From Tessaracoccus sp. OH4464_COT-324 (GTDB lineage Bacteria > Actinomycetota > Actinomycetes > Propionibacteriales > Propionibacteriaceae): DNA of 40,510 nucleotides. The translations under genes and the position numbers were made by a program. The stretch covers positions 1 to 40,510 of the forward strand of contig NZ_RQYZ01000019.1 in assembly GCF_003932855.1 (NCBI RefSeq), in the 5' to 3' direction. This document shows, piece by piece, positions 6,078 through 29,024 of the stretch. The notes under the pieces were generated by a model. It searched no databases and was not told the DNA's origin. It worked only from the letters and a program-made list of their open reading frames with translations. Every line of letters begins with the position of its first letter. Position 1 is the first letter of the stretch.

Positions 6078-6243
6078 TTAGGGCCTGTTTCGAAAGTGCT
6101 GGTGGAGCGAGGACGCTGCGGGCGGGATGAGTTGGGTTCCCAACGGCTGCCACCTGTACTGGACGTACAGGTCAAGCCGCTGGGGACACCCCTCACCCGA
6201 ACCGGAGCGCCGCAGCCCGGCGGGTCTCCGGGGAGGGCCCTAG
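6078..6243. mobile_element. Dispersed MITE-like element, copy A
   Basis: A 166-bp element flanked by TTAG (6078-6081) and CTAG (6240-6243). The left end reads GGCCTGTTTCGAAAGTGC. The right end, read on the minus strand, has GCCGGGCTGCGGCGCTCCGG then TTCGGGTGAG. The centre holds a palindrome CCTGT..ACAGG at about 6158-6173. Copy B (15027-15191) has the same three blocks in the opposite orientation, and copy C (22975-23127) has the GCCGGGCTGC block. The right flank TAG is the stop codon of hemD. It separates hemD from the cytochrome c operon. Similarity was judged by eye. Confidence 0.7.
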
Positions 6244-7790
6244 GTGGCCTCGGCAACCGTCTTCCGTCTGCGACGTCGCTTTCGCTCAGAGGGTTTCTTC
6301 AGCGGCTCGCCCTTGGCGAGCGCCGCGGCCCGCCGTTCGTCGGCGAACTGGGCGAGGCCCTCGGCCAGCGACGCGAACGTGGGCGACTTGGCGATCACGT
6401 CCACGCGGAGGCCGTGCTGCTCGCAGGCGGCCGCCGTCGCTTCACCGATCGCCGCGATGATCGAGACCGCGTGCGGCTTACCTGCGATACCGATCATGTT
6501 ACGCACGGCGGTGGCCGACGTGAATACGACGGCGTCGAACATACCGCCCTTGATTGCCTCGCGGGTCTCGGCGGGCGGCGGAGCGGCCCGTACCGTGCGG
6601 TAAGCGGTGACCCCTTCGACTTCCCAGCCGAGGTGGCCCAGCCCCTCCATGAGGGGCTCGATCGACACGTCCGCGCTAGGCACCAGCACCCGATTCATCG
6701 GGTCCATCATGTTGTCGAAGGCCGGGAACTCGGTGGCCAGCGCGCCCACGGTGTTGGGACCGCTGGGCTCCAGGTCTGCGACGATGCCCAGCTTGCGCAG
6801 TTCGCCGGCGGTACCGCGGCCGACGGCGGCGATGCTGATGCCGGACAGTGCGCGCGAGTCCAGCCCGTACTCCGCCAGCCGCTCCGCGACGGCGGCGACG
6901 GCGTGCGGGGACGTGAAGACGCACCACAGATAACGGCCGTCGACGAGGCCACGCACCGCACGCTCCATGCCTTGCTCGGTGCGGGGCGGCTCGATGCTCA
7001 TTGTTGGGATGGTTTCGGTGGTGGCGCCGTACTGGGCCAACTCCTCGGCCAGTCTGCCGAGGTCGTCCTTTGTGCGGGGACTGAGCACGCGCCAGTCGAA
7101 CAGCGGTTTGGACTCATACCAGCCGACGCGGGCCCGGTCGGAGTCGGCGATGGCGTCGCCGTAGACGATGTAGCATTCGCCCTCGTCGATGGGCGCTAGA
7201 TCGGCCCAGGTGAGCATGCGGCTGGTCTGCGCGGTGGAACCAACCCCGCTCAGCAGCAGGACCTTGTCGTTCGGAGCGTATCTCTCCTGGGCGACGCGGC
7301 CGATCTCGCCGAGGAGGCTGCCCGAGGTGTGCAACGCGACGGTACCCGCCGTCGGCCACTGCTCGATCTCGGGAGCATGGTCGCAAGCATGCATGTACGC
7401 GGTGGTGCGGCCGGTGGCAATCGCACCGTAGGTGAAGAGGGTGCTCCAGCGGTTCAGGCCCGGGATGACGTTGATCCGCACCCCGGCGGCGCGCACGCGG
7501 GGCACGACGTCGGTAGTGAAGGCCTCGCAGAAATGGTCATCTTGGCTCAGTCGGACGGTTTTCAGCCCTTCGCGGGCCGCTTCGACCAGCTGTGCCACCT
7601 CGTCCTCGGCCACCAGCTCGATCCGGGTGTGTCCCGCGGTCAGCTTGCGCACCTCGTCAATGTCCACCCGCTGGTCGATCACCACGAGATCCGCGAAACG
7701 CAGCGATCTCGCGCCCAGCAGGGTCAGCAGCCCGAACTCTCCAGGGCCGGAGCCGACGAACGTGACGCTCCCGAGTCCTACTTCAGCCAA
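6240..7790 (-). CDS. hemD: Bifunctional uroporphyrinogen-III C-methyltransferase-like / uroporphyrinogen-III synthase
   Basis: 516 residues in two parts. Residues 1-245 resemble a SUMT methyltransferase: the SAM motif VGSGPGEFGLLTLLG is present, but later motifs are divergent (VIPGLNRWSTLFTYGAI where SUMT usually has PG-S). Residues about 255-490 are a HemD-type synthase, which closes hydroxymethylbilane to uroporphyrinogen III (VFTSPHAVAAVAERL, AVGRGTAGELRKLG, DAVVFTSATAVRNM). The C-terminus is a basic tail (KPSERKRRRRRK). The start is a TTG at 7788-7790 with AGGAG five bases upstream. Downstream of the glutaredoxin-like gene many actinobacteria have hemA and hemC before hemD; both are absent here. 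The stop TAG forms the end of repeat element A. Confidence 0.88.
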   Translation of the reverse strand: MAEVGLGSVTFVGSGPGEFGLLTLLGARSLRFADLVVIDQRVDIDEVRKLTAGHTRIELVAEDEVAQLVEAAREGLKTVRLSQDDHFCEAFTTDVVPRVRAAGVRINVIPGLNRWSTLFTYGAIATGRTTAYMHACDHAPEIEQWPTAGTVALHTSGSLLGEIGRVAQERYAPNDKVLLLSGVGSTAQTSRMLTWADLAPIDEGECYIVYGDAIADSDRARVGWYESKPLFDWRVLSPRTKDDLGRLAEELAQYGATTETIPTMSIEPPRTEQGMERAVRGLVDGRYLWCVFTSPHAVAAVAERLAEYGLDSRALSGISIAAVGRGTAGELRKLGIVADLEPSGPNTVGALATEFPAFDNMMDPMNRVLVPSADVSIEPLMEGLGHLGWEVEGVTAYRTVRAAPPPAETREAIKGGMFDAVVFTSATAVRNMIGIAGKPHAVSIIAAIGEATAAACEQHGLRVDVIAKSPTFASLAEGLAQFADERRAAALAKGEPLKKPSERKRRRRRKTVAEAT

Positions 7791-7799
7791 GGGTTCTCC

Positions 7800-8042
7800 T
7801 CACAACAAGGCGGAAAGTGCAGCTTCATCAACAAACCAGAAGCTGCGCACCTTCCCGTCCACGATCAAGACCGGCACGTGGTCCGAGTACTCGGCCAGCG
7901 CCGAGTCCGAGTCCACGTCAACCAGCTCGTATCCAACTCCCCTCAACGCGCAGCTGCGCTCGACGATCCGCTCGGCGTCTGAACAGAGGTGACAGCCGGA
8001 ACGGGTGAGCAGCCGGACCCGCGCAGCGGAGCAGGGGGTCAC
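7800..8042 (-). CDS. Glutaredoxin-like (DUF836) family protein
   Basis: 80 residues. The CXXC motif sits in [14 protein letters not shown] near the N-terminus, followed by a thioredoxin-type strand [13 protein letters not shown] with the cis-proline. Genes of this family sit just upstream of haem genes in many actinobacteria, and this one precedes hemD by 9 bases. The start is the GTG at 8040-8042, which overlaps the stop of the bS22 gene as GTGA. A longer in-frame extension upstream overlaps bS22 and lacks family similarity. The biochemical role of this small protein is not established. Confidence 0.87.
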
Positions 8043-8140
8043 TTGCCCGCGCGACGACGCTGAATGCGGGTGCGCTTCAGGAGCTTGCGGTGCTTCTTCT
8101 TGGCCATGCGCTTGCGGCGCTTCTTGATGACAGAGCCCAC
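8039..8140 (-). CDS. Small ribosomal protein bS22 (AURKAIP1/COX24-domain protein)
   Basis: A 33-residue, very basic protein starting at a GTG (8138-8140): it begins [12 protein letters not shown] when the GTG is read as Met, continues [15 protein letters not shown], and ends RRRAGK. This is nearly the sequence of the conserved actinobacterial COX24-domain protein seen as bS22 in mycobacterial ribosomes. AAAGG lies upstream in a Shine-Dalgarno position (GAAAGGCGAAAC). Its TGA overlaps the GTG of the glutaredoxin-like gene. It is the first gene of a minus-strand unit (bS22, glutaredoxin, hemD). It is short enough to be missed by gene finders. Confidence 0.92.
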
Positions 8141-27867: not shown

Positions 27868-28835
27868 GTGGTTTGGGCGTGGCCAACGTGTCCGTGGCCT
27901 ACTCGGGCAGCATCGCCGTTGACGGGGTCTCGTTCGACGTCGCTCCCGGCCAAGTGCTGGCCCTGCTCGGCCCCTCGGGGTGCGGGAAGTCGTCCCTGCT
28001 GCGCGCGATCATCGGCCTGGAGCCCCTGGCTGCTGGGCGGGTGCTGTGGGATGGCGATGACGTGAGCCACGTCAAGGTGCACCGCCGCCAGTTCGGGCTG
28101 GTGTTCCAAGATGGCCAGCTGTTCCCGACGATGACCGTCGCCAAGAACGTGGCCTACGGGCTGAGCGGACTGCCCCGTCCCGCCAGGCGCCAGCGGGCCG
28201 AGGAGCTGCTGGAGCTGGTGGGGCTGGCCGGCTACGGCCCGCGCAGGCCCACCGAGTTGTCGGGGGGCCAGGCGCAGCGCGTCGCCCTGGCGCGCGCGTT
28301 GGCGCCCAGACCGCGCATGATCCTGCTCGATGAGCCGCTGTCCGCACTGGACACGGCGCTGCGCCGCCGGCTGAGCGAGGAGTTGCGCCGGATCCTGACG
28401 GAAACCCATACCACCGCCGTCTATGTCACCCATGACCAGGAGGAGGCGTTCACCGTTGCCGACCGCGTGGCAGTGATGAGCGCCGGGAAGATCTTGCAGC
28501 TCGCAGCCCCCGACGAGATCTGGAACCGCCCCGCAAGCCGCGAGGTGGCTGCCTTCCTGGGCTTCCGCACACTGACCGACGCCGCTACCGCCGGCGCGCT
28601 CGGCTGGCCGGGCGAACTGGCCGCGGACGAATTGCTGGGCCTCGGCCCCAGGTCGCTGGATCTGGACCCGGGAGGCGTTCCCCTTCCCGTGCTGCGGCAG
28701 TCGATGAACGTGGACCACTTCGTGGTCACCGTCGCACTTCCCGACGGGCAACTCGCCACCGTCGCAGCGCCCGCCCACGTCGCGGGCGAGACCGTGCGGG
28801 TGCGCCTCACCTCAGGCGCGATCACCCCAGCCTGA
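27861..28835 (+). CDS. thiQ: Thiamine ABC transporter ATP-binding protein
   Basis: 324 residues. It has Walker A GPSGCGKSSLLRA, the signature motif ELSGGQAQRVALARAL, Walker B MILLDEPLSALD, and the H-loop TAVYVTHDQEEAF. A C-terminal extension of about 90 residues (LGFRTLTDAATAG onward) is longer than in E. coli ThiQ and may be a regulatory domain. It hydrolyses ATP to drive thiamine uptake through ThiP. The start overlaps the thiP stop (ATGGTGA). A GTG three bases later is also possible. The family also includes iron and sulfate transporters; the riboswitch supports thiamine. Confidence 0.88.
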   Translation: MVSGLGVANVSVAYSGSIAVDGVSFDVAPGQVLALLGPSGCGKSSLLRAIIGLEPLAAGRVLWDGDDVSHVKVHRRQFGLVFQDGQLFPTMTVAKNVAYGLSGLPRPARRQRAEELLELVGLAGYGPRRPTELSGGQAQRVALARALAPRPRMILLDEPLSALDTALRRRLSEELRRILTETHTTAVYVTHDQEEAFTVADRVAVMSAGKILQLAAPDEIWNRPASREVAAFLGFRTLTDAATAGALGWPGELAADELLGLGPRSLDLDPGGVPLPVLRQSMNVDHFVVTVALPDGQLATVAAPAHVAGETVRVRLTSGAITPA

Positions 28836-28907
28836 GCCCACCGAGCCTCGGCTCATAGCCGAGAATCGCCCGGGGAGTGTTGCTGCCTACGCCCCCCGAG
28901 GCAACAG

Positions 28908-28942
28908 GGAGGCAGCCCCGCAGATTCTGCGGGGCTGCCTCC
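28908..28942. terminator. Strong hairpin between the thiamine operon and clpC
   Basis: A 16-bp stem with a 3-base loop, GAGGCAGCCCCGCAG-ATT-CTGCGGGGCTGCCTC plus one closing pair. The genes on either side converge, so it probably stops transcription from both. There is no long T-run on either strand. Together with repeat element E it fills the gap between the two genes. Confidence 0.8.
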
Positions 28943-28949
28943 TCGTCAA

Positions 28950-29024
28950 TCAGGGTCTGTTTCGAAGGTGCCATCGGGGCGGATCACCCCGGGGTGCGTG
29001 GCCTTCGAAGCAGGTCCGGCTCAG
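28950..29024. mobile_element. Dispersed MITE-like element, copy E
   Basis: A 75-bp element bounded by TCAG direct repeats (28950-28953, 29021-29024). The ends form a terminal inverted repeat: GGTCTGTTTCGAAGGTGCC on the left and, read on the minus strand from the right, GGACCTGCTTCGAAGGCC after three extra bases. The inside is a GC-rich hairpin (GATCACCCCGGGGTGCGT). The left end matches copies A and D. The right TCA is the minus-strand TGA stop of clpC. It is the shortest copy and has a different flanking tetranucleotide, so it is the least certain member. Confidence 0.55.

Follow-up and report, generated by a model that had tools for sequence, protein, structure and literature searches.

A probable family of foldback miniature transposons with several kinds of end in one actinobacterial family

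What are the five short intergenic elements, here called A to E, that lie in contig C91 of Tessaracoccus sp. OH4464_COT-324, and what could have moved them? The contig, a GC-rich stretch of 40,510 nt that was analysed whole and is referred to below as the window, belongs to a draft genome (G000) of 2.76 Mb in 217 contigs. In a plasmid collection, the ClpC-like protein of the window is matched best in Nonomuraea, Arthrobacter and Nocardia, which indicates actinobacterial DNA. An initial annotation had taken the five elements for a non-autonomous mobile family, moved by an IS5-like transposase encoded elsewhere in the genome. We consider it highly probable that they are fossil copies of miniature inverted-repeat transposable elements (MITEs) served in trans by the transposases of insertion sequences (ISs), in which a separate conserved body is combined with at least four kinds of end.

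One body with a conserved fold

The five elements form a real family. The covariance model R1, built from 23 copies of the genus to which the window belongs (7, including A, come from its own genome) and run unfiltered, placed A, C, D, B and E at ranks 1 to 5 in the window, and the match at rank 6 had an E-value of 0.047. From 133 model matches, 102 copies were retained after repeat matches of the same place had been removed, and 93 of these measure 160 to 166 nt. A full element of about 163 nt consists of inverted ends of 16 to 18 bp and a body of about 130 nt between them; shortened copies of about 104 nt occur in four genomes. R1 has matches in 35 of 198 genomes and in 7 of the 29 genera of the taxonomic family, with at most 14 candidates scored per genome, so that the copy numbers obtained are minimum values. 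In one genus (g28) there is a single match, seen as a model match only, and another (g27) has decayed copies only. Plasmid and phage collections gave no match to the family, nor did viral contigs (one exact pattern only). In our judgement there is a strong case that this is a MITE family present in several genera within a single actinobacterial family.

The layout of the body was read from an alignment, A2, of 25 copies from five genera. It comprises 17 of the 25 loci of one set and 8 others; two loci that repeat copies already used under a different name were left out, as were six copies that had decayed or were short or odd, so A2 holds the better copies. The first positions of the body are near-fixed mismatches (columns 19-20 opposite 152-151); a stem with further fixed mismatches and a tandem G.A follows and leads to an apical loop around TGGA. 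RNAalifold predicted 63 pairs on A2, of which 50 have changed on both sides. Pairing is kept in 93.7% of 1570 cells, compared with 74.5% in shuffles (none of 500 as high) and with 35-43% for slid partners, over which the structure has an advantage, being derived from the same rows. For A1, an alignment of 23 of 24 chosen copies from one genus (out of 77 extracted, many of which are the same copy with shifted ends), 36 pairs were predicted and 30 of them have changed on both sides.

Mismatches persist at fixed places: over the five genera, G.G at 19/152 is found in 22 of 25 copies, C.T at 20/151 in 23 of 25, A.C at 49/122 in 22 of 25 and G.A at 53/118 in 21 of 24. The strand that reads GCGAGGACG first gives the better predicted fold in all 25 copies (mean of −108 versus −80 kcal/mol), and when all opposed positions are counted G.T outnumbers A.C by 209 to 77. 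An earlier count of 196 to 20 was dropped as biased, its pairs having been predicted on that strand. This asymmetry points to a constraint on one strand, acting either as RNA or as single-stranded DNA. The whole element is thus modelled as one conserved foldback, a property of the body that the MITE reading of the initial annotation did not include; the core CCTGTrCTGrAC..ACAGG that it had noticed in A and B corresponds to the apical hairpin.

Target duplications, empty sites and candidate partner insertion sequences

Flanks and empty sites argue for mobility. Identical 4-bp flanks border 31 of the 102 copies, compared with 13.1 on average and at most 23 in 2000 shuffles of the right flanks, and among the 204 flank sides CTAG occurs 69 times and YTAR 98 times. 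The joined flanks of seven elements were searched in seven genomes of the genus, using copies from other genomes, as the window's own copies are without a close relative. L156 (in G046) is absent from four sister species, where the site is contiguous with one TTAG, and L161 (in G018) is absent from three, where the site has one TAG. For B, an empty site was sought through the proC locus: no ptsI-like match was present near proC in 29 other fetched loci, with loci shown for 30 of 38 matches. A DisA-like protein searched against the genome contigs returned one archaeal fragment. The mobile family proposed in the initial annotation, with tens of copies in YTAR-type (mostly CTAG) 4-bp flanks and with empty sites in sister species, is therefore upheld, the empty sites being those of copies in other genomes. 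The elements are short, have inverted ends and are dispersed (at least 27 copies in the window's own genome), with coding capacity judged by length alone; as far as sequence comparison goes, they are best described as non-autonomous transposons (MITEs) with target-site duplication.

The ends, read at up to 5 mismatches of 16, fall into four classes that we name T1 to T4. Among the copies readable at both ends, 55 have T2, 21 T3, 13 T1 and 5 T4, and the two ends are alike in 94 of 94, none being mixed. One or both ends are unreadable in 8 of the 102 copies, and the ends of a copy in G187 fit none of the four classes (6 of 16). A prfB-like stop codon carries a T3 copy in G046 and a shortened T2 copy in G018.

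These classes match ISs of two IS5 subtypes and of IS1182, with 0 to 3 mismatches of 16 at one end at least. T1 ends match elements of about 1 kb of the IS5_3 type (NF033580) in G011 and G002 (L183, L173, L175), which end at CTAG. T2 ends match a 1.2-kb IS5_4 element (NF033581), L388, present in several, mostly CTAG-flanked copies in G121; one end of the T2-matching IS5_4 has 0 of 16 mismatches to an element end in G124, of the same genus. In the genomes richest in T2 copies, a matching IS for T2 was not found. T3 ends match IS1182 (NF033551) in G121, with nine full-length matches, and in G046 itself, with 0 of 16 mismatches, and T4 ends match the IS1182-type element L188 in G050, whose right end has 2 of 16 mismatches. 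The similarity between elements and ISs stops near nt 16-18: over nt 18-27 the identity is down to 0.1-0.4, the right end of T4 (up to 0.6) being the exception. It appears, from this comparison, that none of the ISs found here is the source of the body of about 130 nt. The IS5-like source of the ends that the initial annotation had suggested holds for T1 and T2 copies, those of the window included, as IS5-family ISs with matching ends exist; T3 and T4 ends of the same body match IS1182 instead.

Bodies and ends are discordant. On a tree of the bodies only (98 of the 102 copies), the four end labels need 10 changes, where the least possible is 3. The cleanest case is G046, in which near-identical bodies occur with T2 and with T3 ends. 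T1 and T4 are each present in both g1 and g33, far apart on the body tree.

Some junctions of elements and ISs were seen in passing. At L086 (G011:C5), a T2 element is broken, where other copies have the CTAG of the body, by a T1-type end with a CTAG next to it, so that elements seem to nest in each other. In G121, the T2-matching IS5_4 occurs in head-to-tail copies with one CTAG in common (L388, L389, L393, L394). The IS1182-type element with T4-like ends at L188 (G050:C2 near 268540) abuts the end of a T2 element. At L191 (G003), an IS5_3-type transposase gene, a 208-amino-acid open reading frame (ORF), is situated immediately inward of a T3-type element end, which looks as though the IS had cut into the element.

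The copies of the window and of its genome

The five elements of the window, which carry T1 ends, are very likely fossil, worn copies of this 163-nt hairpin MITE family. The end pattern GGGYCTGTTTCGAAAG, at up to 3 mismatches, has 7 sites in the window; over 100 shuffles the mean was 0.47 and the highest count 3. Six of these sites are ends of A, B, D and E. The remaining one (38553-38568) lies near the beginning of an FtsH-like gene, at a place where no element was found. The common termini that had been assigned to these four elements are real, with the reservation that B has the shared terminus at one end only and that the right end of A is decayed.

Element A (6078..6243, plus strand; R1 match 6081-6240, E 9e-26) has a T1-type left end, while only GGGCC survives of its right inverted end. 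It is flanked by TTAG (6078-6081) and CTAG (6240-6243), and the CTA at 6240-6242 on its right edge is the stop codon of a HemD-like gene (6240-7790, minus strand). Element B (15027..15191, minus strand; match 15030-15188, E 4e-4) is placed exactly between two convergent genes and has CTAG on both sides (15027-15030 and 15188-15191). Each flank holds a TAG stop, of the gene for a phosphoenolpyruvate-utilising enzyme (13255-15030, plus strand) and of a proC-like gene (15188-15973, minus strand). Element C (22975..23131, minus strand; match 22980-23131, E 2e-11) has a decayed right end that lacks a clear 4-bp flank, and the TTAG on the other side (22975-22978) holds the TAG stop of a RadA/KaiC-like ORF (21596-22978). 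Element D (23890..23985, minus strand; match 23893-23982, E 3e-8) has two T1-type ends between CTAG flanks (23890-23893 and 23982-23985) and is apex-deleted, model positions 49-119 being missing. The flanks that the initial annotation gave for A, B and D agree with the sequence. Element E (28950..29024, plus strand; match 28953-29017, E 0.002) is a remnant of the outer stem. It had been described as bounded by TCAG repeats (28950-28953 and 29021-29024), but the right TCAG lies 3 nt beyond the inverted end and there is no flush duplication. Element E may be compared with a copy of about 49 nt at L073 (G003:C1 near 2025434), which has little besides two T2 ends.

A second covariance model, R2, was built from 25 copies that all come from other genomes, none from the window's own. 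In 837 kb of the own genome (contigs C1, C2, C142, part of C153, and C91), it recovered A (E 1e-14), D (E 0.0017) and C (E 0.0086), and gave no match to B or E at E ≤ 0.1. Rfam models gave nothing at gathering score on the window's elements; a weak match to a microRNA hairpin, of 34 bits against a threshold of 95 bits, was seen in ten loci with copies. The only Rfam match at gathering score in the window is a thiamine pyrophosphate (TPP) riboswitch (25070-25173, plus strand; 69.9 bits, gathering score 54.3), upstream of the ORFs 25205-26266 and 26158-27867 and of an ABC-transporter ATPase-like ORF (27861-28835).

The further copies that the initial annotation expected in the genome and in related ones were found. 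At least 27 were placed in the own genome, 14 of them in the 837 kb with the window (one at E 0.018) and 13 in further stretches, which belong to a set of 20 chosen for earlier matches, 7 of these being without a model match. In sequence searches of the own genome, element A found 9 places and a hand consensus 28. The transposase that had been expected elsewhere in the genome was not seen: PF01609, PF13586 and PF13546, the three models used, had no match in the 2.76-Mb draft, and the matching ISs were found in other species. PF13546 had no match in 11 genomes, and the search with PF13586 was confined to the own genome. The own copies lie 19-37% off their own consensus (23 copies, rough alignment). 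Because of this divergence and of the missing transposase match, the family looks inactive in this genome.

The own copies are placed unevenly. Convergent gaps hold 15 of the 27, tandem gaps 11 and divergent gaps 1, while convergent gaps make up 58 of the 314 own-genome gaps of at least 60 nt. Both convergent stops lie within 3 nt of the element in 8 of the 27 (six TAG/TAG, one TAG/TGA, one TAG/TAA), compared with 2 of 63 classifiable copies in other genomes, where 27 more are inside a called gene or without a called neighbour; a test of this excess gives 8e-4. The P values of 2e-5 for double-stop sites and 5e-5 for convergent gaps are indicative, as own-genome genes were called with a crude script based on GC by codon position and several comparisons were made. 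In the 837 kb, five copies, B among them, are enclosed by two TAG stops, and five CTAGs that provide the stops of both genes carry no element; not every occupied site is still bordered by CTAG on each side (the flanks at C1:180071 have changed). These 837 kb contain 729 CTAGs, of which 425 are inside called genes, 89 at stops and 215 elsewhere; CTAG is about 3.7 times rarer there than base composition predicts (729 versus 2696). General targeting of stop codons was considered and dropped: by eye, 13 of 40 copies in other genomes have a stop at their edge, a proportion close to that of stops among non-coding CTAGs (29%).

Since CTAG is a palindrome that includes TAG, duplication of the site lets both convergent genes keep their TAG. 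Insertion into a CTAG common to two such genes would restore both stops, and copies there would be hard to delete without damage. The double-stop copies may accordingly be retained fossils, as imprecise deletion would harm a gene, and a benefit to the host is possible.

Competing explanations and known relatives

In the mechanism that we favour, a transposase supplied by an IS would recognise the inverted ends of 16 to 18 bp in trans, and the element would be inserted at a YTAR-type site, mostly CTAG, with duplication of 4 bp. The ends, the duplications, the empty sites and ISs with the same ends and target are observed, and from them we infer transposition itself. As a single strand, the body would form one long hairpin in which both the internal mismatches and the apical loop are fixed. 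It would be a parasite of several kinds of IS (IS5_3, IS5_4 and two IS1182-type elements), its ends having changed more than once; the discordance of ends and bodies is seen in the data, and the change may have come about by exchange or by stepwise adaptation. A bolder and more tentative proposal, to which we would give somewhat less than even weight, is that of a mobile module, a structured RNA or a single-strand hairpin, that passes between transposon families. The body would then be the unit of selection over several genera, its fold being needed to spread, and the ends would be exchanged to use whichever CTAG-targeting IS, IS5 or IS1182, is active.

The fold would be maintained in lineages with ongoing transposition, not at the individual landing sites. 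Selection on the jumping lineages is favoured over a role at each site because no pair has changed on both sides among the copies of G050 (0 of 36), because the fold is kept between lineages at the level given above, and because the elements show no bias in orientation towards incoming transcripts (23 sense, 26 antisense). For the own-genome copies, an unfitted alignment shows no excess of pairing (55.3% versus 54.7% in shuffles), and an alignment fitted to the structure shows 75.8% versus 69.1% (none of 500 shuffles as high).

Several observations weigh against the explanation that we prefer. The covariation of the own copies on the structure-fitted alignment does not fit pure decay, and it partly contradicts selection on jumping lineages alone. 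Flanks are not identical in 71 of the 102 copies. A clean junction was obtained at only 2 of the 7 joined sites: L152, L154 and L157 are absent too, with gaps or changes at the junction, L155 aligns across it to one distant site only, and L158 to none. The left end of T4 has 5 of 16 mismatches, a level reached by shuffled ends in 43 of 2000 cases. The body tree is weakly resolved, with 50 of 94 inner forks open, and the changes required by its starred branches number no more than 2 for T2, 1 for T3, 1 for T1 and 2 for T4. The end classes have a CTG-like motif in common, which makes gradual divergence possible. To these is added the missing transposase match in the window's own genome.

The hairpins could instead serve the host, as domesticated terminators or insulators that separate convergent transcripts. 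The crowding of own copies into convergent gaps and double-stop sites, at which as many are occupied as free in the 837 kb, speaks for this. The balanced orientation does not, nor does the scan of B, the sole copy scanned, in which no intrinsic-terminator pattern (GC-rich stem and T run) was present around the element. The same sites are empty in sister species and compensatory change is lacking among the G050 copies, and we find a host role improbable. A single transposase lineage whose ends drifted stepwise with it and were never exchanged has rather more in its favour, in that T2, T3 and T4 ends share the CTG-like pattern, all classes have a CTAG-type target, and IS5 and IS1182 transposases are recognisably related, as cross-matches of their models indicate. 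The ends nevertheless fit ISs of three NCBIfam models (IS5_3, IS5_4 and IS1182), and both the near-identical bodies of G046 with T2 and T3 ends and the occurrence of T1 and T4 in g1 and g33, at distant places on the body tree, make such drift unlikely.

Template switching can produce two-sided changes in one step, and the covariation might be a mutational by-product in which one arm is rewritten from the other and the fold is not selected. The loss of the apex in D, E, the shortened copies of four genomes and the 49-nt copy of G003 is in keeping with such events. Repair of one arm from the other would, on the other hand, erase the mismatches that stay at fixed places over five genera, and the preponderance of G.T over A.C and the greater stability of one strand in every copy of A2 are further points against it. 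This leaves little to recommend the by-product explanation.

Among known elements, IS5-group MITEs have ends that match IS5-family ISs and a YTAR target, and REPINs go with RAYT enzymes. The present family resembles IS5-related MITEs in its short inverted ends matching IS5-family ISs, its 4-bp YTAR-type duplication and its lack of coding capacity; it differs in that its body is not from the partner IS and elsewhere carries the ends of a different IS5 subtype or those of IS1182. In the excerpts of a review that deal with such elements (PMC10969869), the full-length transcript of QMITE2 of Coxiella burnetii, found mostly in 3' untranslated regions, is predicted to fold very stably. QMITE2 is thus, like the present family, a MITE that folds over its full length into one structure; in contrast, it has direct repeats of 7-9 bp, and those excerpts mention neither conservation across genera nor end exchange (PMC10969869). 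Correia and ERIC are described there as small dispersed hairpin-forming elements across species, with Correia transcripts cut by RNase III and ERIC at gene ends altering mRNA decay (PMC10969869). Unlike these, as far as that description goes, the present family is actinobacterial, and has CTAG-type flanks and IS5 and IS1182 partners. REP and REPIN sequences are described as palindromic, intergenic, non-autonomous repeats (PMC3116915, PMC3733652), whereas the present element is about 163 nt long and has inverted ends, 4-bp duplications and IS5 and IS1182 partners. No recognised description of the present family was found in the open-licence literature, searched partly under guessed group names, and a word search of the available text of the review found neither Actinobacteri nor Propioni (PMC10969869). 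Hairpin-forming MITEs as such are already known (QMITE2, Correia, ERIC); what seems to be new is that a single conserved body has exchangeable ends, which fit different kinds of IS.

MITEs are usually viewed as deletion leftovers of a single IS. In the present case, a foldback body is conserved in sequence, fold and length across several genera, while the ends that it carries fit different kinds of transposase. This makes testable how non-autonomous elements change their helper, why many MITEs of bacteria form hairpins over their full length, and whether mobility requires the hairpin as RNA or as single-stranded DNA. Moreover, the fit of copies between convergent stops shows how a palindromic target can make insertion harmless.

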